From NCBI RefSeq assembly GCF_946481145.1, contig NZ_CAMLMJ010000004.1:124001-188000 (forward strand): a stretch of 64,000 nt of DNA, read 5' to 3'. The DNA comes from an uncultured Sediminibacterium sp. GTDB lineage: Bacteria > Bacteroidota > Bacteroidia > Chitinophagales > Chitinophagaceae. A program made the translations under genes and the position numbers. Below are positions 1-57,160 of the stretch, piece after piece; within the stretch, counting starts at the first letter, position 1; each line of letters begins with the position of its first letter. The notes below the pieces were generated by a model, which searched no databases, was not told the DNA's origin, and saw only the letters and a program-made list of their open reading frames with translations.

Positions 1-129
1 AGGGGTTAGGAGTTAGGTATTAGGTATTAGGTGTTAGGTTTTAGGTACTGGGTATTTTAAATTAATCTTTAAAAAATAACACTAACACCTAACACCTAAT
101 ACCTAACACCTAGTACCCAGCACCCACTA
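1..129. repeat. Tandem-word inverted repeat, ttaggt family (unit 1)
   Basis: The left arm (1-57) is a run of ttaggt(a/g) words. The right arm (about 79-120) carries the complementary words aacaccta/atacctaa, so the stretch can fold into a long hairpin with an AT-rich loop. The right arm runs directly into the TAG stop codon (127-129, minus strand) of the small gene that follows. The same word family recurs at 3508-3610. The unit is truncated by the window start. Confidence 0.85.
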
Positions 130-483
130 CCAAAGCTGAATTAAATCTGCTTCAGTATTTACAGAGGTCGTTGGAACTTCTTCTGCTGGCTCGGGCGATT
201 TCATTTTATCACCTGCTGAAAGCTGAACCATCGACTCCATAACAACCATATTACCTCCAGCTTCCATGGCAGAGAGGTAGTCTTTAATCATTTCCCTGCT
301 TTGTTCAAGCTCGAGCAATCTTTTACTTGATAAAGGATCTGCTTTACCGAAACGTTCCTCTGCGCTGAAGTTCTTCATGCGATGGAAGTTAATTTTGTTG
401 TTGAGTATTGCAAACAATACTTCTTTTGCTTCGGCTGGTGTAAACTCGCCTTTGATTAGCACTATATTTTCTGTGTTTTTCAT
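127..483 (-). CDS. Hypothetical protein, paralogue of the next upstream gene
   Basis: Function not recognised. It encodes a 118-residue soluble protein with no signal peptide or membrane segment. Its first 35 residues (LIKGEF, then AEAKEVL, then KINFH) resemble the start of the neighbouring gene at 493-738 (LIKGSF, SEALELI, KIKYH), so the two look like diverged tandem copies. This copy has an extra C-terminal tail rich in Glu, Pro and Thr. Nine bases separate it from that gene and the pair follows icd closely, so the three are probably co-transcribed. The TAG stop is fused to a hairpin repeat. Confidence 0.7.
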   Translation of the reverse strand: MKNTENIVLIKGEFTPAEAKEVLFAILNNKINFHRMKNFSAEERFGKADPLSSKRLLELEQSREMIKDYLSAMEAGGNMVVMESMVQLSAGDKMKSPEPAEEVPTTSVNTEADLIQLW

Positions 484-492
484 ATTGATTAT

Positions 493-738
493 TTAAGCTA
501 TCCCGATTCCAGATTCGATGTTTATGGTTTGATCCACAGACATCAGTTGTGTCCTGAGTTCATGAAACTCATGTTGCAATTGTTTGATTCTTTTTTCACG
601 CATCTTGATATCTTCTTCCTTCTCGCTTTCTTTGATTTTATTTTCATGGTACTTGATTTTCACATGTACCATCTGCGAGATAAGTTCAAGTGCTTCTGAC
701 TTATCGAAACTGCCTTTGATTAATTGTAATTGTACCAT
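493..738 (-). CDS. Hypothetical small coiled-coil protein downstream of icd
   Basis: Function not recognised. It encodes 81 residues, highly charged, with a predicted helical and probably coiled-coil centre (about residues 28-68, rich in Lys and Glu, with a heptad-like KRIKQLQHEFHELRTQL run). The N-terminus shares the LIKGxF...EAxEL...KIxxH pattern with the gene that follows at 127-483. It starts 14 bases after the icd stop, which suggests translation from the icd mRNA. It has no export signal. It may be an accessory protein of the pair rather than a stand-alone enzyme, but nothing here fixes a role. Confidence 0.7.
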   Translation of the reverse strand: MVQLQLIKGSFDKSEALELISQMVHVKIKYHENKIKESEKEEDIKMREKRIKQLQHEFHELRTQLMSVDQTINIESGIGIA

Positions 739-752
739 ATTATTGATTTTGT

Positions 753-2283: not shown

Positions 2284-3201
2284 ATGAATTATACGCTCAA
2301 CCAATTGCAGATTTTCCTGAAAGTGGCGCAAACACAAAGTGTTACAAAGGCTGCAGAAGAACTATACCTTACACAACCTGCGGTCTCCATTCAGCTAAAA
2401 AATTTTCAGGATCAGTTTGATATACCACTTACCGAAGTAGTAGGCCGGAAATTATACGTAACAGATTTTGGAAAAGAAATTGCCAGTGCCGCCGAAGCTA
2501 TACTTAATGAAGTAAATGCCATCAATTATAAGACACAGGCCTATCAGGGACAGATTTCAGGCAGGCTTAAGATTTCTGTTGTTTCAACAGGCAAATATGT
2601 GATGCCGTATTTCCTGACCGGATTTATGAAACAACATCCAGGCGTAGACCTACTAATGGATGTAACCAATAAAGCAAAAGTGATTGAAAGTCTTGACAGA
2701 AATGAGGTCGACTTTTCACTGGTTTCCATCATCCCCGACACCCTTCAATTAAACAGAATCGAATTATTACCCAATAAACTATATTTAGTCGGCGCCCGTG
2801 GTTCTAAAATAAATGCCAAAGGCCCCGTAAAAAAAATATTCGAAGAACTGCCACTGATTTTCAGGGAAAATGGTTCTGGCACAAGGCAAACCATGGAAAG
2901 ATTTATCGAAAAACACCACCTCATTTTTCGTAAAAAAATGGAACTTACTTCAAATGAAGCTGTAAAGCAGGCAGTGCTCGCTGGACTGGGTTACTCTATA
3001 ATGCCCCTAATCGGTATTAAAAATGAGTTAAAGAATGGAGATATGAAAATCATCCCCGTAAAAGGCCTGCCCATTCAAACGGCCTGGCAACTCATCTGGC
3101 TAAAAGGGAAAAAATTATCACCAGTTGCTACTGCTTTTCTGGCTTATATAAACAAGGAAAAGACTGCCATCACTAAACAATTCTTTCCGCAGGTAGATTA
3201 A
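2284..3201 (+). CDS. LysR-family transcriptional regulator
   Basis: A 305-residue DNA-binding regulator with the LysR layout. The winged helix-turn-helix spans residues 1-60 (LNQLQIFLKVAQTQSVTKAA, then LTQPAVSIQLKNF). A periplasmic-binding-protein-like effector domain follows from about residue 90 to the end (GRLKISVVST; LAGLGYSIMPL). The sequence style is that of the CysB/CbbR branch. Being divergent from icd, it may control that gene or itself, which is inference from position only. Its 3' end overlaps the last four bases of the convergent gene at 3198-3473. Confidence 0.88.
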   Translation: MNYTLNQLQIFLKVAQTQSVTKAAEELYLTQPAVSIQLKNFQDQFDIPLTEVVGRKLYVTDFGKEIASAAEAILNEVNAINYKTQAYQGQISGRLKISVVSTGKYVMPYFLTGFMKQHPGVDLLMDVTNKAKVIESLDRNEVDFSLVSIIPDTLQLNRIELLPNKLYLVGARGSKINAKGPVKKIFEELPLIFRENGSGTRQTMERFIEKHHLIFRKKMELTSNEAVKQAVLAGLGYSIMPLIGIKNELKNGDMKIIPVKGLPIQTAWQLIWLKGKKLSPVATAFLAYINKEKTAITKQFFPQVD

Positions 3202-3473
3202 GCCTCTTTCTTTACCTCACCCCATACAAACTCCTCAATATCATCAAAAAGACTGCGGGTTCTTGTTTTACCCTTAGACACGGCCTCGTACTTATTAGTG
3301 AGGTTAAATGCAAGCTGATACATTTCTTCACTGGCCGTTTGGTCAACCACTTCGGCAAAACTTTTTGGCTGTTCCGCTTCCTCTAAGGAACGGATATAAC
3401 ACAACACTTCTACTACTTCAAAATGCGTTTTTTGCCATGAATCAAATCCATTTGGAAATTCAGGTAGTGACAT
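3198..3473 (-). CDS. Hypothetical 91-residue protein
   Basis: Function not recognised. It is a small acidic soluble protein with no signal peptide or membrane span. The residue pattern (mixed helix, Trp at both ends, FxxVVEVLCYIRSLEEAE) is typical of a real folded protein rather than an antisense shadow. It is convergent with the LysR gene and shares four bases with it at the stop codons. The gap upstream holds a ttaggt-word hairpin and then the divergent O-methyltransferase promoter. Confidence rests on the sequence character and on the clean fit between neighbours. Confidence 0.6.
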   Translation of the reverse strand: MSLPEFPNGFDSWQKTHFEVVEVLCYIRSLEEAEQPKSFAEVVDQTASEEMYQLAFNLTNKYEAVSKGKTRTRSLFDDIEEFVWGEVKKEA

Positions 3474-3507
3474 GTCATTTATATTTTAAATAGATGAATG
3501 TAAATAC

Positions 3508-3610
3508 AGGGGTTAGGGGTTAGGTGTTAGGTATTAGGTGTTAGGTATTAGGGTGCGGTACCAGACGCTGCAATTTCTTCCTAACACCTAACACCTAACC
3601 CCTAACACCT
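3508..3610. repeat. Tandem-word inverted repeat, ttaggt family (unit 2)
   Basis: The left arm at 3508-3553 is built of ggttagg/ttaggtg/ttaggta words and the right arm at 3580-3610 of the complementary cctaacacctaa words, with a 26-base unique loop. It uses the same word as 1-129 but sits between two divergent genes, where neither gene's transcript should end. This argues against a pure terminator role. Confidence 0.88.
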
Positions 3611-3691
3611 TACTCTAAACCTAAACTACACCTTTTCTATGGTAGTAAAAAGCTAAAATCTGCCGCCTTCTACCCTTCAGATGGGTTTTCG

Positions 3692-3699
3692 TATCTTTG
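3692..3699 (+). promoter_or_regulatory. -7 promoter box abutting the O-methyltransferase start
   Basis: TATCTTTG is a perfect match to the Bacteroidota -7 consensus TAnnTTTG. Only four bases separate it from the ATG at 3704, so transcription would begin at or next to the start codon, giving a leaderless or nearly leaderless mRNA. The box and spacing are identical at 10383-10390. Confidence 0.6.
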
Positions 3700-3703
3700 T
3701 AAT

Positions 3704-4357
3704 ATGAATACCCCCCTGATTATTTCCCCCGAAGCAGAGGCTTATGCACAGGCATTTACCACTTCGGAAGAGGGACTCTTACAGGAGATTGCCGGCTTCA
3801 CCCAAAAGGAACATCCGCTGGCCCATATGCTTAGCGGACAGGTACAGGGGAAATTTTTATCCTTTCTGAGCACTATTATGCGCCCAAAGTACGTTTTAGA
3901 GATAGGTACATTTACAGGGTATAGCGCACTTTGTCTGGCAGAAGGACTTACACCAGACGGAGAATTGCATACACTGGAGTGTCGGGAGGAGGATGCCAGC
4001 ACAGCGCGGAATTATTTTAGCAAAAGCAATAGAAACCATCAGATAAATTTGCACATCGGTAATGCGGCGGAAATAATACCCCGTTTACCTTACGAATGGG
4101 ACCTCGTTTTTATCGACGCCGATAAAACAGGGTATATCGGGTACTATGAACAAATAGTTCCGAAACTCAGTAAAAATGGAATCATTTTGGCAGATAATGT
4201 CCTGTTTCATGGACAAGTATTGGAAGACCCCATTAGCGGGAAAAATGCCAAAGCCATTCACGCATTTAATGAACATGTGCGTAATGACGAAAGAACAGAA
4301 CAGGTATTATTAACTATCAGAGACGGTTTGTTAATGATAAAAAAGAAAGAAGCCTGA
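3704..4357 (+). CDS. O-methyltransferase (class I SAM, caffeoyl-CoA O-methyltransferase family)
   Basis: A 217-residue soluble SAM-dependent methyltransferase of the Methyltransf_3 family. Motif I is VLEIGTFTGYSALCLA (residues about 65-80). The acidic motif ECREED follows. The metal and substrate region is DLVFIDADKTGYIGYYE (about 135-151) with ILADNVLFHG (about 160-170). Bacterial members include the tRNA hydroxyuridine methyltransferase TrmR as well as small-molecule catechol methyltransferases, so the substrate is open. The start follows a perfect -7 box by four bases. The peptidoglycan hydrolase gene follows after about 80 bases. Confidence 0.88.
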   Translation: MNTPLIISPEAEAYAQAFTTSEEGLLQEIAGFTQKEHPLAHMLSGQVQGKFLSFLSTIMRPKYVLEIGTFTGYSALCLAEGLTPDGELHTLECREEDASTARNYFSKSNRNHQINLHIGNAAEIIPRLPYEWDLVFIDADKTGYIGYYEQIVPKLSKNGIILADNVLFHGQVLEDPISGKNAKAIHAFNEHVRNDERTEQVLLTIRDGLLMIKKKEA

Positions 4358-4436
4358 AAAAACGCCGAACATTACTTGCTTGAACAGGAAATGTTTGCGG
4401 ACAAATTTGATGCAACAAAAACCAGGGAAAAGAACA

Positions 4437-5639
4437 ATGAAAAAATGGATATTATTGATCACAGTTTATGCTTCTATGCAAACAATGGTTTTTGCACAGG
4501 ATCTAACTGTGAAAGAAAAAACAGAAGCATATATCAATAGCTATAAAGACCTGGCTATCGAAGAAATGCTTCGGACTGGCGTACCCGCTTCTATTAAACT
4601 GGCGCAGGGTATACTTGAGTCTAAATTTGGTGAAAGTCCACTTGCCAAAAATGCCAACAACCATTTTGGTATAAAATGTAAAACTGAATGGACAGGTGAT
4701 AAAACTTACCAGGATGACGATGCAAAAGGAGAATGCTTTAGGGTTTATCCATCAGCTGAACAATCGTATAAAGACCATTCAGATTTTCTTAAAAACAGGC
4801 CTCATTACGCCTTCCTCTTTAAACTGGAACCAACAGATATTACCGGATGGGCCTATGGATTAAAACGCGCTGGTTATGCCACCAGTTCTACCTATCCGGA
4901 GAAACTACTTAGGGTTATTGAGGATTATAAGTTACACCAATACACGATGCTGGCACTGGCCATCAGAGATAACAGGAATGCACCTATTCCACAGCAATCA
5001 ACCACTATAACTGCGGAACCTGCCAAACCTGCCCCTGCTGAGCTGAAGCCTGCAGAAATAAAAGAAAAGGAAGACAAAGCTCCGACAGATAAAGCAAGCG
5101 AAATAAAAACGACGGAAGAAGTTAAAGCAAAAGAACCAGTTAAAGGTACTCCTGCACAAACAGCTAGCGAGGTAACCCCAGAAGCTACTGATGATACCGT
5201 TGTTACAGAGAAAAATACACCTACGGTTGCTGATAAAAAACCATCACCCTATCCGGAAGGCGTATTCACCATTAATCATACCAAAGCCATCTATGCAAAA
5301 GAAGGTACTTCCTTACTGGCACTCGCACATAGGTATGATATCAGTCTAAGCAAATTATTCGACTTTAATGAATTACCAGAAAGCGATATCCTTGAAACGG
5401 ATCAATTGCTTTTCATTGAGAAGAAACAAAAAAGAGGTGCTTCTGATATCCATGAAGTGGCTCCGGGTGAAACCTTACATGCCATAGGACAGAAAGAAGG
5501 TATTCGATTGGAAAGCCTGATGGAGTACAACAAACTCAAAAAAGACAGTCAAATCAGTGCAGGTCAAAAACTATACCTGCGTTCACCTGCTGAGATAAAA
5601 AATGCAGCACCGAAAGCAAAAACAAAAAATACAAAATAA
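4437..5639 (+). CDS. Secreted N-acetylglucosaminidase with LysM repeats
   Basis: A peptidoglycan-cleaving enzyme for the periplasm or cell surface. From the ATG at 4437 it begins with a clear signal peptide (MKKWILLITVYASM, cleavage near VFAQD). The glucosaminidase domain follows (about residues 20-165, including IKLAQGILESKFGESPLAKNANN with the catalytic Glu). A low-complexity Ala/Pro/Glu/Lys linker comes next, then two LysM-like peptidoglycan-binding segments near the C-terminus (LLALAHRYDISLSKLFDFNE; HAIGQKEGIRLESLMEYNKL). An in-frame TTG at 4380 would add 19 residues ahead of the signal peptide and is less likely. hpt follows after six bases. Confidence 0.85.
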   Translation: MKKWILLITVYASMQTMVFAQDLTVKEKTEAYINSYKDLAIEEMLRTGVPASIKLAQGILESKFGESPLAKNANNHFGIKCKTEWTGDKTYQDDDAKGECFRVYPSAEQSYKDHSDFLKNRPHYAFLFKLEPTDITGWAYGLKRAGYATSSTYPEKLLRVIEDYKLHQYTMLALAIRDNRNAPIPQQSTTITAEPAKPAPAELKPAEIKEKEDKAPTDKASEIKTTEEVKAKEPVKGTPAQTASEVTPEATDDTVVTEKNTPTVADKKPSPYPEGVFTINHTKAIYAKEGTSLLALAHRYDISLSKLFDFNELPESDILETDQLLFIEKKQKRGASDIHEVAPGETLHAIGQKEGIRLESLMEYNKLKKDSQISAGQKLYLRSPAEIKNAAPKAKTKNTK

Positions 5640-5645
5640 TTCCGC

Positions 5646-6188
5646 ATGAATGTGATCACTGTTCACGATAAAGAATTTGTTCCCTATTTACCTGAAGATT
5701 TGATCCGTGAAAAAGTTAAGGAGCTGGCTGCTTTACTCGACAAAGACTATGCTGGTAAAAAGCCTTTATTTATTGCTATCCTTAACGGATCATTCATGTT
5801 CGCAGCAGATCTTTTTAAAGAACTGAGCATTGAAGCCGAAATCTGTTTTATTAAACTCGCTTCTTATAAGGGCACTAAATCAACCGGACAAGTTATTACT
5901 GCAATAGGTTTAGATACTGAAATCAATAACCGTCATGTTGTTATCCTTGAAGATATTATCGATACAGGTAAAACCATGAGCGAGTTTCTGCCCCAGCTCT
6001 TCAACCAGCAACCGCTTTCACTTAAAGTAGCTGTACTCTTGCACAAGCCCGATGCAATGAAATACCCTATCAATATCGATTATTGTTGTTTTACCATCCC
6101 TAACAGGTTTGTATTAGGGTATGGACTAGACTATGACGGCCTCGGTAGAAATATCAAAGAAATTTACCAGCTTAAGACCGAAGCATAA
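5646..6188 (+). CDS. hpt: Hypoxanthine phosphoribosyltransferase
   Basis: Purine salvage: transfers the phosphoribosyl group of PRPP to hypoxanthine or guanine, giving IMP or GMP. The 180-residue length is normal for the family. The PRPP-binding signature VVILEDIIDTGKTM (about residues 98-111) is intact, with the flexible-loop region LASYKGTKSTG before it and the base-contacting FVLGYGLDYDGLGRN near the end. It starts six bases after the glucosaminidase stop and is probably co-transcribed with it. Confidence 0.94.
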   Translation: MNVITVHDKEFVPYLPEDLIREKVKELAALLDKDYAGKKPLFIAILNGSFMFAADLFKELSIEAEICFIKLASYKGTKSTGQVITAIGLDTEINNRHVVILEDIIDTGKTMSEFLPQLFNQQPLSLKVAVLLHKPDAMKYPINIDYCCFTIPNRFVLGYGLDYDGLGRNIKEIYQLKTEA

Positions 6189-6262
6189 CAAGGCTTTAAC
6201 GGATTCTATATACAAAGGCCGCCTATTAAGCGTTATATTGTAGTAGAAACCCCTTTTGCCAA

Positions 6263-8026
6263 ATGCGTACCCCCATTTGGATATTATCATGCTGCCTATT
6301 TGCCATTCAGCTACCAGTAGCTGCGCAATACTATTTGCGTGGGGAAGTAAGAAACGAATTTGGAACCTTACTCGATGGTGTAAAAATAAAACTGAAGTCT
6401 AAACCAGGACAAGTATTTACAACAGGGCATAGCGGGGCATTTGGTATTTCCATTAAACAACAGAACGACTCCATTAATCTGTCTTTCGAGGGTTATGAAA
6501 CACTTAATCTTTTTGCTGGGAGTAAGTCGTACCTGCATATAACACTCAAAACAATACCAGGTACACTTAAACTGTATAAAAACAATCGCTCTTCAATTGT
6601 TACCAATGCGGTAAATGGTGATAACACCCCTTATTCATCTCTTGGCGAGAGTTACAGCAACCTGGTTGAAAATGAGTTTATAACTGCCGCCACTTTTCCG
6701 GAAACCGGTTTTTCTCTCAACATCGACAATGCGGCTTACAGCAATGTAAGAAGGTTTATTTCAAACCAAATGTTTGTTCCCAAAGATGCGGTCAGGATTG
6801 AAGAGATGCTTAACTATTTCAGCCTGCCTATTCCAGAACAACAGCACTCTACCGATAAAACACAATTCCGTTTTAATTATAAACATACCAGTTGCCCATG
6901 GAATAAAAACAATCAATTATTATTCCTTCAACTTGAAGCACCGAGTTTACCACTTGATGACATCCCTCCTTCCAATCTCGTTTTCCTGATAGATATTTCC
7001 GGCTCAATGGATAAACCTAACAGGCTTCCATTATTGCAATCGGCATTTAAAATGCTGGTCAATAATTTACGTGATTGCGATACGGTAACCATTGCCACTT
7101 ATGGTGGCGGTGTTGGCATTGTACTCCCTCCTACTGGTGGCGCACATAAAGCGCATATGCGAAATATCATTGATTCTCTTACTGCAGGAGGCGATACCCC
7201 TGGTTCAGGTGCCATTCAGCTTGCTTACAAATTGGCAAAAGATCAGTTTATACCCAATGGTAACAACCGTGTTATCCTTGCTACAGATGGGGATTTCAAC
7301 GTTGGTCAATCGTCGGAAAAAGAATTGGAAGATTTAATCATCCGCTACCAGCAATCAGGCATTTACCTTACTTGTTTGGGTGTTGGAATGGGCAACTATA
7401 AAGACAGTAAACTAGAATCACTCTCCAAAAAAGGCAACGGCAATTTTGCTTATATTGACCAAATAAGGGAAGCAGAAAAAGTATTGGTGAAAGAATTTAC
7501 CAAAACCATTTTTGCGGTAGCGGATGATGCTGCAATAAATGTTCGGTTTAACAATGCAACAGTGCATCAGTACAGACTTATTGGTTTCGATAATAAAAAA
7601 TCGGCCCTTGAAGACAGCAGCAGTATACTGGAAGGTGGAGAAATAGGAAGTGGCCATACGATCACCGCGATCTTCGAATTATGCCCCGCAAAAGATAGTG
7701 CAGCTTCTGCTCAACAACTGATGGCATCGCTAGAGCTCAGGTATAAAAAACCAGGATCGAATGAGCTGATTTACCAAAAATTCTCATGCCAATATCAGCC
7801 TGTTGATATTACACAAACCGACAGCACTTACCGCTTTGCTGCTTCAGTTGCGATGTTTGGCTCAGTCTTACGAGATTCCCACTTTACTAAGGATTATATG
7901 TTGGAAGATGTATTAACGCTTGCCAAATCCGGCATACAAAAAAACAATGTTTTGCAGAACGAATTTGGCAAGCTATTAGAACAGGCGATACAGTTGTATA
8001 ATCCTTCGAAGAAAAAAAGGAAATAG
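6263..8026 (+). CDS. Secreted VWA-domain protein with carboxypeptidase-like N-terminal domain
   Basis: A 587-residue exported protein. A signal peptide (residues 1-21) is followed by a carboxypeptidase-regulatory-like beta domain (about 25-95, LRGEVRNEFGTLLDGVKI). The YfbK-type N-terminal region comes next. A von Willebrand A domain then carries the metal site DISGSM (about residue 245) and a downstream ATDGDFNVG. The C-terminal region is of the DUF3520 type found in YfbK-like proteins. The role is probably adhesion or protein binding at the envelope; the ligand is unknown. The TAG stop runs directly into the hairpin words of the following gap. Confidence 0.85.
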   Translation: MRTPIWILSCCLFAIQLPVAAQYYLRGEVRNEFGTLLDGVKIKLKSKPGQVFTTGHSGAFGISIKQQNDSINLSFEGYETLNLFAGSKSYLHITLKTIPGTLKLYKNNRSSIVTNAVNGDNTPYSSLGESYSNLVENEFITAATFPETGFSLNIDNAAYSNVRRFISNQMFVPKDAVRIEEMLNYFSLPIPEQQHSTDKTQFRFNYKHTSCPWNKNNQLLFLQLEAPSLPLDDIPPSNLVFLIDISGSMDKPNRLPLLQSAFKMLVNNLRDCDTVTIATYGGGVGIVLPPTGGAHKAHMRNIIDSLTAGGDTPGSGAIQLAYKLAKDQFIPNGNNRVILATDGDFNVGQSSEKELEDLIIRYQQSGIYLTCLGVGMGNYKDSKLESLSKKGNGNFAYIDQIREAEKVLVKEFTKTIFAVADDAAINVRFNNATVHQYRLIGFDNKKSALEDSSSILEGGEIGSGHTITAIFELCPAKDSAASAQQLMASLELRYKKPGSNELIYQKFSCQYQPVDITQTDSTYRFAASVAMFGSVLRDSHFTKDYMLEDVLTLAKSGIQKNNVLQNEFGKLLEQAIQLYNPSKKKRK

Positions 8027-47715: not shown

Positions 47716-47720
47716 TTTTT

Positions 47721-47807: not shown

Positions 47808-47813
47808 ATTTTC

Positions 47814-48182: not shown

Positions 48183-48187
48183 TGTTT

Positions 48188-48560: not shown

Positions 48561-48588
48561 TGTTATGTTTTTTTAGCTATGAGGTCTG

Positions 48589-48660: not shown

Positions 48661-48662
48661 TA

Positions 48663-48875: not shown

Positions 48876-48882
48876 TATCTTC

Positions 48883-48991
48883 AATTTGAAAATTTGAAAA
48901 TTTGAAAATTGGGAAATCGCTTTCCGGGTTTAGCAATCTGAAAACATTTTCATCTGCCTTAGGCAGATCAAATTGCCTCATTTTCAAATTA
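48883..48991. repeat. Tandem-word hairpin (aatttgaaa) between rplP and rpmC
   Basis: Three aatttgaaa words (48883-48910) face cattttcaaatt (48979-48990). The latter includes the rplP stop, reading TAATTTGAAAATG on the minus strand. Inside is a CCTTAGG palindrome atctgccttaggcagat (48952-48968). Confidence 0.87.
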
Positions 48992-49408: not shown

Positions 49409-49415
49409 TTATTAC

Positions 49416-49530
49416 AATTTGAAAATTTGAAAATTTGAGAATTTGAAAATGATTGGAATTTTACCGGGCTTTCTGATCATTTGAATCTGTTTTCATTTTC
49501 AAATTTTCAAATTGCCCCATTTTCAAATTA
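49416..49530. repeat. Tandem-word hairpin (aatttgaaa) between rpsC and rplP
   Basis: Four aatttgaaa-type words (49416-49451) face cattttcaaattttcaaatt (49494-49513), with a further tttcaaatta word reaching the rpsC stop (49528-49530). The stop again reads TAATTTGAAAATG. Confidence 0.9.
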
Positions 49531-50322
49531 ACGTCTGTCTCTTCCGCCTCCACGGTTATCTCTTCTATCACCGCCGCGACCACCACGATCATCTCTTCTG
49601 TCTCCACGTCCGCCACCGCTTCTTTCTTCACCACCTCTTCTCTCGCTCATATCATTTTTACCGCCAACGAAATTGGGGTTGAGTTCGCGTTTACCCAGAA
49701 CTTCACCTTTACAGATCCATACTTTGATACCGATTTTACCATATACAGTTTGAGCGTATACGTTAGCGTAGTCGATATCCATACGGAATGTATGCAAAGG
49801 CACACGACCTTGTTTAAATTCTTCGCTACGAGCGATCTCCGCGCCACCCAAACGACCACTCAACTTAATTTTGATACCTTCTGCGCCCATTCTCAGGGTA
49901 GAAGCAATCGCCATTTTAGTTGCACGTTTGAAGTTGATACGGTTTTCGATCTGACGAGCGATGGTATCACCAACGATATTTGCATCCAGTTCCGGACGAC
50001 GGATCTCAAGGATATTGATCTGCACGTCATCTTTACCGGTTAATTTCTTCAACTCTTCTTTGATACGGTCTACTTCCCCACCGCCTTTACCGATAATGAT
50101 ACCTGGTTTAGACGTGTGAATAGTAACGATCAGCTTACCCAGGGTACGCTCTATTACAATTTTGGCAATACCGCCCTTGTTGATACGGGCGTTCAGGTAA
50201 GTACGGATTTTATGATCCTCAATTAACTTAGTAGCATAGTCTTTCTTACTACCATACCAGTTACTTTCCCATCCGCGGATGATACCTAACCTGTTACCAA
50301 TTGGATTTGCTTTCTGACCCAT
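49528..50322 (-). CDS. rpsC: 30S ribosomal protein S3 (uS3) with RGG-like tail
   Basis: Small-subunit protein at the mRNA entry channel, with a KH RNA-binding domain (about residues 38-110, [18 protein letters not shown]) and the S3 C-terminal domain ([20 protein letters not shown]). It has 264 residues, about 30 more than the E. coli protein. Residues from about 220 onward form an Arg/Gly/Asp-rich disordered tail of GGRGDRR and DRGGRGG type. Such RGG-like tails bind RNA in other proteins; the function here is not known. Confidence 0.96.
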
Positions 50323-50337
50323 ATAGTGGTTTTACAA

Positions 50338-50721
50338 TTAGTTTTTAGAATCTACGATTAATGTTACATGGTTACTGCGTTTGCGAACCCGGTAGCCACG
50401 GCCCTGGGGTGCTGGACGCATACGCTTAAGTACACGACCTCCGTCAACAAATACAGTTTTTACCACCAGGCTGCTGTCTGCGGCACTGGCGCCATTGTTT
50501 TTCTGCTCCCAGTTGCTGATAGCACTCTTCAGCAGTTTTGCCAGGGGCACAGCATTGTGCTGTGGGTGGTGCTCGAGAATAGCCAACGCCTTCTCTACTT
50601 CCATTCCACGGATCACATCAGCCAGCAAACGCATTTTGCGCGGCCCTGTAGGATAATTGTTCAGTTTAGCTACTGCTTCCATTTCTTTATTTGTTTCTGG
50701 TGTAATCTGTTCCTTAACCAT
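50338..50721 (-). CDS. rplV: 50S ribosomal protein L22 (uL22)
   Basis: Large-subunit protein with a long hairpin lining the exit tunnel. The 127-residue chain contains the signature [37 protein letters not shown]. It starts 38 bases past the rpsS stop; that gap contains a gtccatag-word palindrome. Confidence 0.96.
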
Positions 50722-50723
50722 TA

Positions 50724-50748
50724 ACTATGGACTATGGACCATGGACTA
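50724..50748. repeat. Tandem-word palindrome (ctatggac) between rpsS and rplV
   Basis: actatggactatgg runs into accatggactac; the words ctatggac and the ccatgg centre identify the gtccatag family. Small unit filling most of the gap. Confidence 0.75.
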
Positions 50749-50759
50749 CAACCTAATGA

Positions 50760-51029
50760 TTACTTTTTAGTTCCTGCGTGTCCTCTGAAGTTACGTGTAG
50801 GAGCAAATTCACCTAATTTATGTCCAACCATGAACTCGGTTACATAAACAGGGATAAACTTGTTACCATTGTGTACCGCAAATGTGTGACCAACAAAATC
50901 AGGGGTAATAGTGCTACGACGGCTCCAGGTTTTAATAACACCTTTCTTTGATTTACCATCGTTCATTGCCACTACTTTACCTTCTAGGTTGGCATCTACA
51001 TAAGGACCTTTTTTAATCGAACGACCCAT
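50760..51029 (-). CDS. rpsS: 30S ribosomal protein S19 (uS19)
   Basis: Head protein that pairs with S13. The 89-residue chain has [19 protein letters not shown] and the [26 protein letters not shown] signature. Normal position between rplB and rplV. Confidence 0.97.
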
Positions 51030-51040
51030 AGTAATGAGTT

Positions 51041-51144
51041 AATTTGAAAATTTGAAAATTTGAAAATTGAGAGTGTTTGTTTTGACACTTTGAGAATTTG
51101 AGGTTTTCATTTTCAAATTTTCAAATTGCCACACTTTCAAATTA
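51041..51144. repeat. Tandem-word hairpin (aatttgaaa) between rplB and rpsS
   Basis: Three aatttgaaa words at 51041-51068 face cattttcaaattttcaaatt at 51108-51127, with a closing tttcaaatta word that includes the rplB stop (51142-51144). Confidence 0.9.
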
Positions 51145-51981
51145 TTTTGCTAATTTTTTTCCGTCTCTTCTCTGGATAATCAGTTTATCACTTGATTTTC
51201 CTTTGGTACGGGTTTTTTCACCTTTTGCATACTTACCAGTTCTGCTACGTGGGTGACCACCTGAAGCTTTACCTTCACCACCACCCATCGGGTGATCTAC
51301 CGGGTTCATAGCTACACCACGAACGCGAGGGCGGATACCTTTCCAACGGTTCTTACCAGCTTTACCTGCAGTTTCCAGGTTATGGTCGCTGTTTGATACC
51401 ACACCAACTGTTGCATAACAATTGATCAATACTTTACGCAGTTCGCCAGAAGGCATTTTTAATACTGCATATTTCTCTTCTTTGTTCGCAAGTTGTGCAG
51501 ATGCACCAGCACTTCTTACCATTTTACCACCCTGACCAGGCTGTAATTCAATATTATGAATCATGGTACCAAGTGGCATGTTTTTCATGGTGAGTGCATT
51601 TCCAATTTCAGGAGCTACTTCATCACCAGCGATAACTGTTGCACCTACCTGTAAACCTTGTGGTGCAATGATGTATCTTTTCTCACCATCTGTATATTGC
51701 AACAATGCAATAAACGCAGTACGGTTTGGATCGTATTCGATTGATACTACTGTAGCAGCAATATCTCTTTTGTTTCTTTTGAAATCAATGATACGGTAGT
51801 GTTGTTTGCTACCACCGCCCATATAACGCATTGCGCGGCGACCCTGGAAGTTACGTCCAGCAGTCTTTTTCTGAGGCTCCAATAAGCTCTTTTCAGGCTT
51901 GTTGGTGGTGATCTCAGCATAAGCGTTTCCGATTCTCCAGCGTGTGCCGGCTGTCATCGGTTTGTACTTCTTAAGTGCCAT
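51142..51981 (-). CDS. rplB: 50S ribosomal protein L2 (uL2)
   Basis: Essential for subunit joining and peptidyl transfer. The 279-residue chain includes [18 protein letters not shown] with the conserved His near the active centre, and the N-terminal OB-like region [22 protein letters not shown]. Length and order are normal. Its TAA belongs to a TAATTTGAAA word. Confidence 0.97.
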
Positions 51982-52027
51982 TTTCTATTTGTTTAATTGC
52001 GGAATTCTCAGCTCCGCGTACTATAAA

Positions 52028-52327
52028 TTAAATGTTTGCGTACAGATCAATTGCTTCTCCTTCGGCTACAGTTACGAAAGCTTTTTTATAAGCCGGTTTC
52101 GCACCTTGAATAAAACCAGCTTTTGTGTAGCGGGTTTTGTTTTTACCTGGAGCAACTGCAGTATTCACATCAATCACACTAACACCATAAAATTCTTCTA
52201 CTGCTTTTTTGATCTCGAGTTTGTTTGCCTTACGGTTTACTTTAAAAGCATATCTTCTCAGCTTTTCTTGCTGGGCATTTGCTTTTTCAGTTAAAATAGG
52301 CTTTACTAATACTTCACTCAGTTTCAT
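52028..52327 (-). CDS. rplW: 50S ribosomal protein L23 (uL23)
   Basis: Exit-tunnel protein and docking site for trigger factor and SRP. The 99-residue chain shows VLVKPILTEKANAQQEKLRRYAFKV and the central KANKLEIKKAVEEFYGVSV signature. It follows rplD after 29 bases. Confidence 0.96.
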   Translation of the reverse strand: MKLSEVLVKPILTEKANAQQEKLRRYAFKVNRKANKLEIKKAVEEFYGVSVIDVNTAVAPGKNKTRYTKAGFIQGAKPAYKKAFVTVAEGEAIDLYANI

Positions 52328-52356
52328 TGTATTTCGGTTGAAACGTTTCTAATTGG

Positions 52357-52989
52357 TTAAGCTACTGCCTCTTCTTCTGCGAAGATTTTGGCGGTATTTT
52401 CTGTAATTACCAGTACATCTGCATTCATGATTTCATAAGTGTTGATGTCGGCCAATAAAGTGCTGGCAACATTTGGCACGTTACGAGTGCTCAGGTACAG
52501 GTTATCATTGTACTCAGGTAATACTACCAGTGTTTTCTTGTCGGCAATATTCAGGCTCTTCATCACTTCAACCAATTGCTTGGTTTTAGGTGCATCCATC
52601 TGAATATCTTCAACAACTACAATGGCACTTTCTTTAGCTTTATAGCTCAGTGCAGAAATCTTCGCCAGATCCTTCACCTTACGATTCAATTTGAAATCAT
52701 AAGCGTGTGGTTTTGGTCCAAAGATGGTACCACCACCCTTATATAAAGGGTTACGGATATTACCTTTACGTGAGCCACCAGTACCTTTTTGCTTATGCAG
52801 CTTACGGCTGGCACCCTGCACTTCAGCACGGGTTTTAACTTTGTGCGTACCTTGACGGCCTGCAGCCAGGTACTGTTTTACAGCCAGATAGATCACATGA
52901 TCATTTGGCTCGATACCGAAAACCTCAGCAGGTAATTCTACCGTTCTGCCGGTTTTCTGTCCTTTTATATTTAATACATCTACTTGCAT
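52357..52989 (-). CDS. rplD: 50S ribosomal protein L4 (uL4)
   Basis: Large-subunit protein whose loop reaches the exit tunnel. The ATG at 52989 gives 210 residues; a TTG two codons earlier is less likely. The loop signature KLHKQKGTGGSRKGNIRNPLYKGGGTIFGP is present. In E. coli L4 represses the S10 operon through its leader; conservation of that control in this phylum is not known to me. Confidence 0.96.
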   Translation of the reverse strand: MQVDVLNIKGQKTGRTVELPAEVFGIEPNDHVIYLAVKQYLAAGRQGTHKVKTRAEVQGASRKLHKQKGTGGSRKGNIRNPLYKGGGTIFGPKPHAYDFKLNRKVKDLAKISALSYKAKESAIVVVEDIQMDAPKTKQLVEVMKSLNIADKKTLVVLPEYNDNLYLSTRNVPNVASTLLADINTYEIMNADVLVITENTAKIFAEEEAVA

Positions 52990-53011
52990 GGTCAATTCAA
53001 TTAAGTTGTGA

Positions 53012-53629
53012 TTACTTCTGGATTAAAACGATAGAACCGTTATGACCAGGAACAGATCCGCTGATCAGGATATAATTCTTTTCAGGGAAGATCTTCACTA
53101 CTTTCAGACCTTTCATTTTAACCCTGTCGCCACCCATACGGCCGGCCATTCTCATACCTTTAAATACACGTGAAGGGTATGAAGAACCACCAATAGAACC
53201 AGGTGCACGCTGACGATCGTGTTGACCGTGAGACTGTTCACCCACACCAGAGAAGCCATGGCGCTTTACAACACCCTGGAAACCCTTACCCTTGGTAGTA
53301 CCAACTACTTCAACGCTCTCGCCTTCAGCGAAAATGTCTACAGTAACAGTTTCTCCCAATGCTTTTTCTATGGAATAATTACGGAATTCTTTTACGAATT
53401 TTTTGGCGGCGGTTTGAGCTTTTGCGTAGTGATTAAGCTCGGCTTTAGTGGAGTGTTTTTCTTTTTTGTCGCCAAATGCCAGTTGAAGTGCGGTGTAACC
53501 GTCAGTATCCTGGGTTTTCACCTGAGTTACGGTACATGGACCAGCTTCAATGATGGTACAAGCTGTTTGCTTACCATCTGCCGAGAAGATGCTGGTCATC
53601 CCGATTTTTTTACCAATAATACCTTTCAT
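53012..53629 (-). CDS. rplC: 50S ribosomal protein L3 (uL3)
   Basis: Assembly-initiating large-subunit protein near the peptidyl transferase centre. The ATG at 53629 ([15 protein letters not shown]) gives 205 residues. The signature loop [19 protein letters not shown] and GRMGG are intact. A hairpin ends four bases before this ATG, and 389 unassigned bases separate it from rpsJ, far more than usual. Confidence 0.96.
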
Positions 53630-54018
53630 CGTTTTGCGGTTTATGCCCCGCAAGGTTAAAGAGGACATCCCACCGATGAAGCGGGATTCAATCCTTGTTT
53701 GCTGCCGACCTTTTCCCTTTACCCGCCGTAGCTTTACCGAAGGAGGGTTGCCTTGTAGCTAACCACCTTCGCTAAAGCTTCGGTGGTCGTTGGAAGTACC
53801 GGAAGTAAACAAACCTCGAAGGGCCTGTTTATATGTATGATCGCGGATGGCGGATGTCTGATTTGAGGCAGAATCTGCTGTCTTTGACCGTTTATTTATT
53901 CAGAGCTGCTTTCTTCTCCACCTGAGGCGGAGAGTTGGCAGATGATTAATTCATTTGTAAGAACTAGTGTTTCAAACCCAACTTGTAGCCTGTAGCTTGA
54001 AACTTGCAGCCTATTTTA
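53630..54018. other. Long structured gap between rpsJ and rplC
   Basis: No gene was found. On the plus strand it holds a ttgcgg/ccgcaa hairpin (53634-53653) next to the rplC start. Farther on are an accacc/ggtggt hairpin with a cttcgctaaagcttcgg core (about 53760-53787) preceded by a related gtagctttaccgaagg copy (about 53728-53743), and a ctccacctgaggcggag palindrome (53917-53933). cttgtagcctgtagcttg and cttgcagcc words lie at about 53981-54010. No TAnnTTTG box was seen on the minus strand. Confidence 0.6.
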
Positions 54019-54324
54019 TCAGGCTTTAATCTCAACCTCAACACCTGAAGGCAGGTCTAACTTACTCAGCGCATCTACCGTTCTTGAAGAAGAAGTATAG
54101 ATATCCAATAAACGCTTATGAGTAGCCAGTTGAAACTGCTCACGGCTCTTCTTATTTACGTGTGGTGAACGCAGAACAGTGAAAATTCTCTTGTGTGTAG
54201 GCAAGGGAATTGGACCAGTTACTACGGCACCTGTACTGCGTACAGTTTTTACGATTTTCTCAGCAGATTTATCTACCAGATTATGATCGTAAGATTGTAA
54301 TTTGATTCTGATTCGTTGAGACAT
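54019..54324 (-). CDS. rpsJ: 30S ribosomal protein S10 (uS10, NusE)
   Basis: Head protein of the small subunit that also pairs with NusB in antitermination. The ATG at 54324 ([14 protein letters not shown]) gives 101 residues; the extension to 54357 runs over the leader hairpin. The signature [34 protein letters not shown] is present. It is the first gene of the ribosomal block and has its own promoter box and leader hairpin. Confidence 0.96.
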
Positions 54325-54332
54325 AGTCGAAA

Positions 54333-54350
54333 CCCAATTTTCGTATTGGG
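54333..54350 (-). promoter_or_regulatory. Leader hairpin between the rpsJ promoter and start codon
   Basis: cccaat (54333-54338) pairs with attggg (54345-54350) around a six-base loop. It falls within the short 5' leader, after the -7 box and eight bases ahead of the ATG. It may influence initiation or be a target for regulation; no homology was recognised. Confidence 0.55.
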
Positions 54351-54354
54351 GTTG

Positions 54355-54362
54355 CAAAGGTA
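54355..54362 (-). promoter_or_regulatory. -7 promoter box for rpsJ
   Basis: Minus strand TACCTTTG, a perfect TAnnTTTG match, 30 bases upstream of the rpsJ ATG, with TTGAC 20 bases further upstream as a candidate -33 element (complement of 54381-54385). Confidence 0.65.
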
Positions 54363-54475
54363 GGGGTCTATATTGGAATGGTCAAGAATTTTGGAAATAT
54401 TTTTAAGAAAAAAGCCCCTTTTTTCATTTAATTCGCCGAAAATAAGGCAAATCGAAGCTTTGTTGATCAGTATAA

Positions 54476-54549
54476 GTGAGTTGTGAATGGTGAATTGTGA
54501 ATAGACCTCTTGACTACTCCCTATTCACAATTCACAATTCACAACTCAC
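54476..54549. repeat. Tandem-word hairpin (gaatggtg/gaattgtg) between divergent genes
   Basis: The left arm at 54476-54504 and right arm at 54521-54549 pair over 28 of 29 bases, with a 16-base loop. It lies between the divergent rpsJ and O-antigen-ligase genes, upstream of both promoters. Confidence 0.9.
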
Positions 54550-54593
54550 ATTACTTCCTAAATTCATTAATTTCACGGCATTCAATTGAACTT

Positions 54594-57062
54594 ATGGCCC
54601 GAAAAAAAACTGTCTCCCCTACCATCACCCAGCAAATAGCTGAAAAAAAGCCATTTACACATCTTGAAAATAACACTAAGACAGCCTGGTTGCCATTTCT
54701 GATACTTGTTCTTTATATGGCCGTTCATTTCATACCAACCATGAACGCTATTGATGTAATGGGACCGCAGTGGCTGTACCTTTCTATCCTCGATATAGTT
54801 GTAAGTGCGTATATATTGGCACGAAAAGACCTCTATTTCGATACGGTTCAACTGATTATAAAACAATTGTTCTCTAAAATATACCTTTCTCTTTTCGTAC
54901 TTGCCGGCTTTTCGATCTTCTTTGCTATAAATCAGGTTGAAGCCTGGGTTTGTTATGTTCGATTCATTGTAACCCTCGTTGCCTTCTTTAATATATCGGT
55001 GATTTTCTTCGGAAACAAAAACCTTTTCAAATTAGTTGCCCAACTATTATCAGTTGTGCTTTTCGTTGAATCTGTACAATACTTTGGCAAATTCTTAAAT
55101 GGGATAGCAGAAACCCCCATGGGAACCCTGATCAACAACCTTAATGGTAATACAGGTAATAAAAACATTTTTGCAGCAAGTCTTGCTATTAAAATTCCGT
55201 TTGTGCTTTATGCATTGTACTATTCGAAACTCGCCGAAAGAATTTTTCACCTTGTAGCATTAAGCATTGGCATTGCTACCCTTTTCATGGCCAGTGCCCG
55301 TGCTTCCTATGTGAGCCTTATATTAGTTAGCATCTGTTATACCATATTTCTAGTAATACAATATTTCCAATCCAAAAAAACGGAAACGCTTTTATTTCGG
55401 TTGGCTTATCTGTTTATTCCAATTATAGCGGCTGTTTTTATCTCCCAGATATCTTATACCCAGGCTACCACTTTTCAGGACAACAATGCAGGCAGGTATG
55501 GAAATGTGGTTGGCAATCTTAGTTCGATAGCTCTTACTAATGATGCCTCCAGTTATCGTTTTAAATTATGGGAGCATGCCATTGACTATATCAGTAAAAA
55601 CCCTATTATGGGAGCAGGGTATGGTAACTGGAAACTCGCTTCTATTCCATATGAAAAAGAATACATCAATGACCTTAACGTACCCGCACATGCCCATAAT
55701 GATTTTCTGGAGCATACTGCTGAACTTGGTTTATTAGGTGGACTCTTATACCTATCGCTATACTTTAGTCTCTTCATATGTACCTTAAAAACCTGGCGAT
55801 CTGCTGTTTCCGAAGAAATCAAGCTAATGTCTCTTTTTTCCTTTTTTGCGCTATTGGTATATGCAGTTGATGCCTTCTTTAACTTTCCAATTGAAAGGGC
55901 TATCATGCAGGTGTTCTTCGCGGTAGTTTGTGCATTTAACCTCGGTGCTTTTATAATGGGTAGAAAAGAACTGAAAAGTGAAGACACACAAACCACGAAA
56001 CCGCTTGCACATCCACTTTTTGGCCTTTTTGCTATTCTTATACTGCTACCTGCAACCTACATTACCTATCTAACATACGTTTCCTTAAAGGCTCAGTTGA
56101 AAGTGGTTCCTGATCTGAAAAATGAACCCATGACTTTGCCATTGGCCGAAGTAAAGAGTCTCTTCCCTCCTATTCCAAACCTTACTTCTTCGTCTCAACC
56201 TATTGAGGCCATTATAGGCAGGTATTACTCTGAAAATAAACAATATGATGAGGCATTGAAATTATTGCGCAAAGCCATGCCTTATAATCCCTATGTTTAT
56301 TACAGCCATTTTTTAATTGCAAATGTTTACTTCTTAACAGAAAAATACGACAGTGCAAAGCACTACGCCGATTTAGCCTACTATAATCGCCCCCGGGCCA
56401 ATACCTATTACCAGACATTAATAGCAGTTGAAGCAAAGAGAAGAGATACTGCTGCTATTGGTAAAGCTTTCAGAACCTATACCCATTATAGAAATGAAAT
56501 TTTCCCATGGCAATTATACTTGCTTGGTATGTTGAACGCTCAACAAAAAGGCAGTCCGGAATTATTAAAAATGGCCGATAGCGCCCTAAACTATTTCAAG
56601 CCAGCTCCTAATACACAACCGAGTGCAGATTACCAGTTACTGGTTAAACGAAGAGAGGAAATTCAGAATAATATGAATGCAAGGGTAGCCGGTGCATCTT
56701 CGCAGGAAGACATTAACCGGGCAACGGCCGTATATAATGAAGCGGTGGCCGCATTTGGCAAAGGTGATTATGCCAATGCTGCCAAAAAATTTGTAGCTGC
56801 TCTTACGATTAGTCCATTCAGCTATAGCATGTTTGAAAATGCCGGCATCTGTTATTATAACCTGAAAGAATATAAAAAAGCAATTTACTATTTCGACAAA
56901 GTAATTGCCATGAAAGTAACCACAGATGGCAAATCAGAATTTTTTAAAGGCGCCAGTCTGATTAATTCCGGCGATAAAGCAAATGGATGCAGTGCTATGC
57001 AAATAGCGGTAGCAAAAAAATATCCTGGAGCGGCCGATATACTTGCGCAGTTTTGCAAATAG
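54594..57062 (+). CDS. O-antigen-ligase/polymerase-like membrane protein with TPR domain
   Basis: An 822-residue inner-membrane protein with about ten spans in its first 500 residues and a Wzy_C/O-antigen-ligase segment (YRFKLWEHAIDYISKNP, then GAGYGNWK, then the HAHNDFLEHTAELGLLGGLLYLSL loop with conserved His). It then has soluble TPR repeats (YDEALKLLRKAMPYNPYVYY; YKKAIYYFDKVIAMK). The ATG at 54594 (MARKKTVSP) is preferred; an upstream in-frame start would lie inside the word hairpin. It probably works on surface glycans. It separates fusA from rpsJ, on the opposite strand. Confidence 0.85.
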   Translation: MARKKTVSPTITQQIAEKKPFTHLENNTKTAWLPFLILVLYMAVHFIPTMNAIDVMGPQWLYLSILDIVVSAYILARKDLYFDTVQLIIKQLFSKIYLSLFVLAGFSIFFAINQVEAWVCYVRFIVTLVAFFNISVIFFGNKNLFKLVAQLLSVVLFVESVQYFGKFLNGIAETPMGTLINNLNGNTGNKNIFAASLAIKIPFVLYALYYSKLAERIFHLVALSIGIATLFMASARASYVSLILVSICYTIFLVIQYFQSKKTETLLFRLAYLFIPIIAAVFISQISYTQATTFQDNNAGRYGNVVGNLSSIALTNDASSYRFKLWEHAIDYISKNPIMGAGYGNWKLASIPYEKEYINDLNVPAHAHNDFLEHTAELGLLGGLLYLSLYFSLFICTLKTWRSAVSEEIKLMSLFSFFALLVYAVDAFFNFPIERAIMQVFFAVVCAFNLGAFIMGRKELKSEDTQTTKPLAHPLFGLFAILILLPATYITYLTYVSLKAQLKVVPDLKNEPMTLPLAEVKSLFPPIPNLTSSSQPIEAIIGRYYSENKQYDEALKLLRKAMPYNPYVYYSHFLIANVYFLTEKYDSAKHYADLAYYNRPRANTYYQTLIAVEAKRRDTAAIGKAFRTYTHYRNEIFPWQLYLLGMLNAQQKGSPELLKMADSALNYFKPAPNTQPSADYQLLVKRREEIQNNMNARVAGASSQEDINRATAVYNEAVAAFGKGDYANAAKKFVAALTISPFSYSMFENAGICYYNLKEYKKAIYYFDKVIAMKVTTDGKSEFFKGASLINSGDKANGCSAMQIAVAKKYPGAADILAQFCK

Positions 57063-57070
57063 ACGTGAGA

Positions 57071-57160
57071 TGTGAATGGTGAATAGTGAATGGTGAATAG
57101 CAAGTATAGAATTGACCTACAGACTACTGACTACTCAATATTGACAATTCACCATTCACA
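57071..57160. repeat. Tandem-word hairpin (gaatggtg) in the convergent gap before fusA
   Basis: gtgaatggtgaatag words (57071-57098) face ttgacaattcaccattcaca (57141-57160), with an actactgactact stretch in the loop. It is directly followed by a conventional terminator, so the word hairpin is not needed for termination here. Confidence 0.82.

Follow-up and report, generated by a model that had tools for sequence, protein, structure and literature searches.

Intervening sequences (IVSs) of 23S rRNA genes can carry a gene for a "23S rRNA intervening-sequence protein" (IVP, also called S23; family PF05635, a four-helix bundle). In Coxiella, the IVS has a 28-bp terminal stem and a variable number of tandem heptamers (GACAGAT) before the IVP gene, and it is excised by RNase III (PMC4990558). 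The same account, cited like all the literature here from the portions available, describes the S23 proteins as having no known function. IVP genes are also known in cas loci (PMC3936711), as at three plasmid loci described below, and in rRNA insertions of candidate phyla radiation (CPR) bacteria (PMC11270868). The heptamer repeats of cyanobacteria, Beggiatoaceae, and Xanthomonas are, in the portions available, so far without an agreed explanation; that of Beggiatoaceae, TAACTGA, forms 169 direct sets and a single indirect one. Here, a stretch of 64,000 nucleotides from an uncultured Sediminibacterium sp. (contig NZ_CAMLMJ010000004.1, positions 124,001 to 188,000) was analyzed, and the whole of it is called the window. 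By its conserved genes, the window falls within Chitinophagaceae, close to Sediminibacterium. Its gaps between genes contain hairpins whose arms are runs of one short word. These word hairpins are probably gene-free (solo) copies of a mobile element, the IVP hairpin element, which encloses an IVP gene in other genomes.

Word hairpins between the genes of the window

The window was scanned for ungapped inverted repeats (+1/-3, loop of at most 70), and those with a score of at least 13 were listed. There are 17 of these, ten of which score at least 16. Ten dinucleotide-shuffled windows gave a total of one repeat of at least 13 and none of at least 16. The repeats lie at 14-112, 3512-3606, 8249-8285, 9567-9636, 11570-11668, 15644-15678, 16918-16984, 20460-20488, 21739-21838, 30806-30855, 32258-32333, 43991-44094, 44313-44349, 49415-49514, 51049-51127, 54476-54549, and 57071-57160. 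Fifteen are fully intergenic and one is 99% intergenic, while the repeat at 54476 overlaps an open reading frame (ORF) with a doubtful TTG start. Thus, the hairpins described in the initial annotation, which was made from the letters of the window alone, are real and intergenic. Repeats scoring at least 16 occur at 0.16 per kb in the window, compared with about 0.023 per kb in the loci around the ribosomal-protein S1 gene of 80 relatives (30 repeats in 1.29 Mb, many of them ordinary stem-loops by eye).

The arms are runs of a single word with a period of 7 nt, in some cases 8 nt. In 16 window hairpins, the best of the lag-7 and lag-8 identities is 0.52-1.0. The AATTTGAA family is made of octads and not of heptads (lag-8 identity 0.92-1.0). 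The longest perfectly matching arms measure 39 nt (21739-21777 with 21800-21838). The same word was said to recur in unlinked gaps, and this holds for GTGAATG (16918, 17010, 20297, 54476, and 57071), AATTTGAA (43991, 48883, 49415, and 51041), TTAGGTG (the gaps at 1 and 3508), AACAGAGG combined with AATGTCC (21739 and 32258), and GTCCAT(A/G)G (42023, 44313, and 45318). Tandem 7-nt units between genes, as in repeats of the STRR type, are therefore present in the window.

Looser settings (score of at least 10, loop of at most 650) added word hairpins in the gaps 8027-8381, 20302-20515, and 45262-45354. Sixteen of the 21 gap starts that had been listed for such hairpins hold one in either scan. 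Those at 15561, 42023, 47721, 48883, and 50724 do not at these thresholds; the first holds a different repeat, at 15644, and the last is too short for the looser scan. The repeats at 15644, 20460, and 30806 resemble ordinary stem-loops and not word hairpins. No Rfam family was found at its gathering score anywhere in the window, and the gaps lie between protein genes, so this is not the location of a 23S rRNA IVS. The stem-forming terminal inverted repeats of an IVS are present. An IVP ORF in the loop is not found in the window; it is found at loci of relatives that share the words.

IVP genes enclosed by word arms

What the initial annotation missed is shown by these loci of relatives: the words and hairpins are part of elements that, in other genomes, have an IVP gene inside them. 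Its interpretation is partly supported. The comparison genomes were assigned to Chitinophagaceae on the basis of named members of the family (Flavihumibacter, Sediminibacterium) that group with them. Among 15 chosen genomes, 14 contain PF05635 (96 matches); it was found in none of 14 control genomes and in 116 of 148 sampled genomes of Bacteroidota. No match to one IVP query was found in 50,697 phage records.

The flanks of 101 IVP genes were tested, 71 from Chitinophagaceae and 30 from the wider Bacteroidota. The former derive from the 96 matches, for which 72 loci were examined and 71 kept after a tandem duplicate (L220b) was dropped, with 12 of the 14 in genome G139 left out; the latter are the best-scoring loci. 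Inverted word arms of at least 12 surround the gene at 58 of the 71 and 11 of the 30 loci, compared with 7 of 501 swapped flanks. At a score of at least 18, these become 36 of 71, 5 of 30, and 0 of 501. Direct repeats of at least 12 were found around only 10 of the 71. Arms scoring at least 14 have a median length of 28 nt and a lag-7 identity of 0.64, compared with 0.20-0.41 at lags 3-6 and 8-13. The 5' side of the arms is poor in C (8.5% C, 26% G). A converse test took 802 ORFs (75-260 aa) from four genomes without regard to family. Word flanks of at least 12 are present at four of five IVPs and at 9 of 797 others.

In two related genomes of Bacteroidota (L255 and L272), an IVP element lies between ends that read, by eye, like nuoC and nuoD. 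Its arms look better kept than the surroundings, which are 73% identical.

Word spelling and IVP phylogeny

In a tree of 100 IVPs, which has few columns and many unresolved forks, proteins of different genomes cluster by word. The word groups, formed by eye, are GTGAAT, TCAAAAG, TTTGATC, AATTAG, AGTCC, AGC, and AATTTGA/AATGTGC. Close IVP pairs from different genomes have a mean arm similarity of 6.58, compared with 5.08 after permutation (maximum 5.79 in 1000). Within Chitinophagaceae, the corresponding means are 8.27 and 5.13 (maximum 6.30 in 2000). For 26 of 58 elements (5.8 expected), the arm of the nearest foreign IVP is among the top 10%. Some close pairs fail to match (L184/L202 and L203/L184).

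Stretches of the window were compared with the IVP arms. All but one of 21 (45318) beat all 40 of their shuffles, with scores of up to 30; the shuffles also destroy the period, so part of the margin is periodicity alone. The best match has the same polarity for 19 of the 21 stretches, the exceptions being 15558 and 47721. The window word AACAGAGG matches IVP arms weakly (13).

Solo hairpins in related genomes

Gene-free hairpins are numerous in relatives. Genome G377 is a single 3.14-Mb contig that shows synteny with most of the window (DNA identity about 70-90%), and 960 kb of it contain 68 word-armed intergenic hairpins away from the known IVP gene. Stretches of 400 kb hold 14 in G013, 21 in G065, and 8 in G174. 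When IVP arms are paired with solo hairpins, 40 of 563 pairs match if the arm is from the same genome and 50 of 2323 if it is foreign; 4 of 2000 label permutations do as well. A solo match in the own genome was found for 11 of 26 tested IVP arms, for example TTTGATC and AATAAGG in G377, ACGTTAT in G065, and TCAAAAG in G013. In the 5' arm of the G377 solos, G exceeds C in 52 of 68 and C exceeds G in 13 of 68.

The solos of G377 lie mostly at gene 3' ends. They number 2.22 per intergenic kb in convergent gaps, 0.63 in tandem gaps, and 0.33 in divergent gaps. In tandem gaps, they lie a median of 5 nt past the upstream stop codon and 30 nt from the next start, and 24 of 30 are nearer the stop. Such placement would suit RNA hairpins that the host itself encodes at 3' ends, as terminators, mRNA stabilizers, or RNase III sites, and that the IVP merely exploits. 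It would also suit them that only 1 of the 68 solos has another inverted repeat of at least 12 within 60 bp, and that the stems of 23S rRNA IVSs are cut by RNase III (PMC4990558). Nevertheless, this explanation is unlikely. Selection on RNA pairing would be expected to leave more G-U than A-C mismatches on the transcribed strand. Arm mismatches on the transcribed strand of IVP elements comprise 49 G-U and 49 A-C, and those in solo hairpins of tandem gaps comprise 14 G-U and 11 A-C; G-U is not tolerated more than A-C on the coding or the transcribed strand. Since G-U is no commoner than A-C, a cause at the DNA level is favored over pure RNA selection, although the numbers are modest. An active selection for hairpins, as proposed earlier, thus finds no support at the RNA level in these mismatch types.

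Placement in the window also speaks against host terminators. The AATTTGAA sites lie beside or between the genes for ribosomal proteins L15, L16, S3, S19, and L2, and four of them lie between co-directional ribosomal-protein genes, where a terminator would do harm. Separate terminator-like stems are already present, at S1 and, by eye, at 57071. The S1 gene (rpsA) has an ordinary terminator-like stem at 21840-21881 on the reverse strand, distinct from the word hairpin, which is a 39-bp extra piece adjoining it. A stem-loop was found within 260 nt after the S1 gene in 23 of 30 relatives examined (of 80 loci), and none is word-armed by eye. A scan of 3000-22500 and 41500-58000 for Rho-independent terminators (GC-rich stem, short loop, T run) flags no heptad hairpin, but it recognizes only loops of 3-8, which are shorter than most hairpin loops here.

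Host terminators would further not be expected to have so patchy a distribution. GTGAAT heptad arrays were found in 81 of 294 genomes of the family, with up to 235 matches in one, and a reversed control pattern was found in 8 of 294. The genus mates G013 and G113 have 235 matches and 1 match, so that arrays come and go within a genus. The word ATGTCCAATGTCCAATG was found in 0 of 10 relatives. On the grounds of mismatch types, ribosomal-gene sites, separate stems, and patchy distribution, terminators were rejected as the main reading. The earlier statement that the hairpins are not ordinary terminators and fit no single known mobile family is supported. The reversed control pattern (TAAGTG heptads) is itself abundant in G038, G084, and G289, where it constitutes another word family.

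Orthologous gaps and changes in the arms

A repeat is present in both the window and G377 at six orthologous gaps. One of them (43947-44359) was excluded from the comparison of arms, as its best repeats lie at different places in the two species. Of the remaining five, three keep the word unchanged (gaps 9555, 49409, and 57063) and two are respelled in both arms (gaps 21666 and 32191). At the respelled gaps, the within-species scores are 39/21 and 28/20, and cross-species hybrids of left and right arms score 6/6 and 6/6. The two loci are unlinked and yet have shifted alike, with AATGTCC in the window and AATAAGG in G377. The counterpart in G377 of the solo hairpin at 21739 is a pair of AATAAGG arms that enclose a broken IVP gene. 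Other word hairpins of the window are missing in G377, for example in the gaps 8027, 11571, and 54358. In the gaps set side by side, arms match while loops are unrelated.

It had been claimed that matching arms drift together. The two respelled gaps bear this out. In two pairs of close relatives (L268 and L266, and the plasmid copies L348 and L350), by contrast, one arm differs by two heptads and the other does not, so a change in one arm is not always accompanied by a change in the other. Single-arm differences of exactly two heptads among close copies, and arms that match around unrelated loops, could also arise if the hairpins were neutral by-products of DNA synthesis, made by heptad slippage and fold-back template switching at quasi-palindromes without any protein. 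Polymerase slippage has been given as the source of 7-nt repeats elsewhere (PMC4692102, PMC4679880, in the portions available). Neutral synthesis does not, however, predict IVP genes in the loops, a spelling that tracks IVP phylogeny, or units that are present or absent with a duplicated target. It is regarded as highly improbable.

Presence and absence on plasmids

Plasmids were searched by tblastn with one IVP. There were 29 matching records, 27 of them cyanobacterial, and 18 loci were read (17 cyanobacterial and one of Gemmatimonadota). Arms of at least 14 are present at 11 of the 18, with words that include GGGAACA, AAAAGGG, AGGGTGT, AGGTGAC, and TTAGCTT. The swapped-flank null is 16 of 173 at a score of at least 12 because words recur.

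Comparison of near-identical cyanobacterial plasmids shows single sites that either carry the whole unit or lack it. Site A adjoins a VirB10 gene. It is filled in three records (two read), with one shortened copy, and gene-free in six records of 96.9-97.3% identity (three read); the filled form L350 adds a 409-nt unit and a second GTAAT. At site D, the unit has TTCTA on either side, and the closer match among the two empty plasmids read has it once. Thus, 5 bp are duplicated at two cyanobacterial plasmid sites (GTAAT and TTCTA). Site B is found in three states: filled (two), empty (two read), and, in Nostoc sp. ATCC 53789, occupied by a heptad hairpin that lacks the IVP gene. At site C, two are filled and two read are empty, with a divergence too high to fix a duplication. 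Some of the IVP genes on plasmids lie inside CRISPR-Cas runs (L335, L344, and L346, from plasmids of Pseudanabaena, Anabaena sp. 90, and Picosynechococcus); the arrangement is cas6-IVP-cas4 twice and cas10-IVP-cmr3 once.

Whole units that come and go with 5-bp duplications (in L350, the one at site A measures about 409 bp without its duplication) would also fit ordinary small transposons, that is, miniature inverted-repeat transposable elements (MITEs) that are moved by some transposase and have the IVP as a passenger. A terminal repeat common to the copies is not found, however. The arms vary by IVP clade, no fixed terminal sequence runs across the word families, and the word, which differs by family, can be respelled at one site. 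In addition, the sole transposase-like gene among the 13 flanked ORFs of the 802 (75-260 aa, four genomes) resembles, by eye, a tyrosine transposase associated with repetitive extragenic palindromes (REP; the transposase is abbreviated RAYT) and has different, GC-rich arms. It is very unlikely that MITEs account for the elements.

Proposed mechanism and its weak points

Sequence comparison establishes the association of words with IVP genes, the co-variation of word and protein, the sharing of words within a genome, and the presence or absence of whole units on cyanobacterial plasmids. From these, a mechanism can be proposed. A complete IVP hairpin element would consist of a 5' array of a C-poor heptamer word, the IVP gene, and an inverted array of the same word. 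Each IVP clade would recognize and bind its own heptamer. The structure match for the family is PDB 2gsc (XCC0516, five chains), and the five-chain ring of this solved member makes one heptad per subunit plausible. The IVP could act on its own element in cis and, by analogy with RAYT and REP, on solo hairpins in trans. Insertion would occur after stop codons and duplicate about 5 bp, a staggered step that is presumed for Bacteroidota as well. Arms may lengthen or shorten by heptad slippage, and their matching may be kept by fold-back copying or by a need for a DNA hairpin. PF05635 is not known to contain a nuclease or transposase domain.

Several observations weigh against this reading. Some concern the IVP genes: no arms were found at a score of 12 at 13 of the 71 Chitinophagaceae loci and 19 of the 30 wider ones, and the window itself has no IVP (0 matches at E of at most 1 in a six-frame search of the window alone). 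Nor is the IVP the only protein in such hairpins. Genes for PDDEXK_3 (PF13366, GxxExxY) have inverted words with a period of 8-10 nt at 13 of 30 loci (L364-L393), compared with 8 of 292 swapped pairs; the words include CACAGAGG, CGCAAAGG, and CGCAGATT (e.g. at L364, L374, L377, and L388). A sister class of elements that bear a nuclease seems to exist. Other observations concern the words. Fifteen of the 26 tested IVP arms have no solo match in their own genome, and AATGTCC, the inner word of the two longest perfect hairpins, matches no IVP arm. Over all IVP pairs, the rank correlation is weak (Spearman rho -0.064, null standard deviation 0.041), so that the signal lies in the close pairs. Genome G006 has 121 direct GTGAAT matches, but hairpins of this word with loops of 5-35 are absent from it and were found in 0 of 13 genomes of its genus; direct arrays can therefore exist without them. 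Simple internal deletion of the complete element would not account for solo hairpins, which have words but not loops in common. Finally, movement does not appear to be frequent, since sister species of Bacteroidota keep the IVP element at the identical site in five of six pairs, with a two-heptad change in one (L268/L266), and target duplication was found only in the cyanobacterial plasmids and not in Bacteroidota.

A wider proposal is plausible and is put forward tentatively: that IVP/S23 proteins are sequence-specific partners of heptamer-word hairpins across Bacteroidota and Cyanobacteria, with a five-subunit ring that reads one heptad per subunit, a word specific to each clade, and a mobile system that scatters gene-free hairpins. 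If true, the heptamer repeats of several phyla, so far unexplained, would have a single origin, and orphan IVP genes would have a function. A protein phylogeny that predicts the spelling of a repeat would be one testable answer to both puzzles. It would also suggest a new way in which a small protein without a recognized catalytic domain can be tied to mobile DNA.

Individual hairpins of the window

The word hairpins are given here by position, without strand. A gene-free hairpin of TTAGGTG/TTAGGTA heptads occupies 14-112 (score 23, lag-7 identity 0.88), and solos of G377 at 822 and 853 kb have a similar word (GGTGCTAGGTACT). Another gene-free hairpin, of TTAGGTG heptads, occupies 3508-3621 (score 23, lag-7 identity 0.92). 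A long-loop hairpin of TTAGCCA heptads at 8032-8366 (score 20, looser scan) holds in its loop the GATTTATCATGATT hairpin of 8249-8285, so the elements are nested; its word matches the arms of IVPs L194 and L258, and it is absent in G377. The gene-free TTTGATC/TTTGATT hairpin at 9556-9644 (score 17) has the identical word at the orthologous gap of G377 and matches the arms of L232 and L206 (21 and 19). The gene-free hairpin of TCAAAAG heptads in the convergent gap at 11570-11668 (score 26) is absent in G377 and matches the arms of L240 and L201 (26; shuffles up to 23).

Two neighboring hairpins of GTGAATG/GTCAATG heptads at 16918-17094 match the arms of L197 and L198 (23-30), and the orthologous gap of G377 carries GTCCATGG words instead. 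A hairpin of GTCAATT/GTGAATG heptads at 20293-20445 (score 15) adjoins the ordinary stem-loop at 20460-20488, and G377 has GTGAGTA-type words there. Composite hairpins of AACAGAGG (8 nt) and AATGTCC (7 nt) are found at 21739-21838, immediately past the S1 gene's own terminator, and at 32258-32333, where the orthologous gap of G377 has AATAAGG arms. These two also look nested, with the 8-nt word outside and the 7-nt word inside. The word AACAGAGG resembles the flank words of PDDEXK_3 genes.

A GTCCATGG palindrome at 42023-42045 is under the scan thresholds. Among the ribosomal-protein genes, AATTTGAA hairpins lie between L15 and S5 (43991-44112, matching the arms of L221 with 20), between L16 and S3 (49415-49529), and between S19 and L2 (51041-51144). 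Right after the L16 stop codon, AATTTGAA forms an array only, without a hairpin at the thresholds (48883-48917). A AGTCCATAG/CCATGG hairpin adjoins the S5 gene (44308-44349) and matches the arms of L203 (15). A GTCCATAGAC hairpin lies between the L18 gene and the following gene (45316-45341, score 10, looser scan); the orthologous gap of G377 has GTCCATAGACCATGG, and the match of the window hairpin to IVP arms is not above shuffles. The GTGAATG hairpin at 54476-54549 has 29-nt arms with one mismatch (score 25) and matches the arms of L197 (21). A second GTGAATG hairpin (57071-57160) lies in a convergent gap beside a separate GC-rich terminator-like stem (by eye), and the identical word is found at the orthologous gap of G377.

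Comparison with known systems

The IVSs of 23S rRNA genes in Leptospira, Coxiella, and others have a protein of the same family, PF05635, and an inverted-repeat stem around its gene. The word hairpins differ in that they lie between protein genes and not in rRNA, and have heptad arms on both sides. In addition, gene-free copies outnumber gene-bearing ones, with 68 solos in 960 kb and 8 IVP matches in all of G377. A further likeness is to the Avd protein of diversity-generating retroelements, which is similar to PF05635 and acts together with a reverse transcriptase (PMC10053308, in the portion available).

The heptamer repeats of cyanobacteria, TAACTGA of Beggiatoaceae, and GGGAATC of Xanthomonas are likewise intergenic tandem heptamers, and in the P6b element of the Nostoc trnL intron degenerate heptads pair into a hairpin (PMC3488679, PMC4679880, PMC4692102). 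The cyanobacterial IVPs of this analysis carry heptad arms, like these repeats. No link of heptamer repeats to IVP was found in the available portions of these three papers, and no publication that links intergenic heptamer hairpins to IVP was found in a literature that was mainly openly accessible and available in part.

In arrangement, the nearest likeness is to the REP/RAYT systems (REPtrons) and TIRtrons. These also consist of extragenic hairpins with a cognate gene between inverted copies, and their repeat families are paired with particular proteins and have gene-free copies (PMC3733652, in the portion available). Gene-free copies at gene 3' ends and a cognate repeat around a protein gene are both found here. 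The proteins differ, since the gene between the arms encodes a four-helix bundle (PF05635) here and an HUH tyrosine transposase in REP/RAYT. The repeats differ as well. Where a REP has a GTAG tag beside a palindrome of 20-40 nt, the arms here are heptad or octad arrays of variable number without a fixed tag. In genome G174, an ORF at G174:C15:371490-371942 (in L333) is, by eye, like a REP-associated tyrosine transposase and has GC-rich inverted flanks, and a true REP/RAYT element may coexist there with word hairpins. On the best reading, IVP hairpin elements are arranged like REP/RAYT systems and are built around an unrelated protein.

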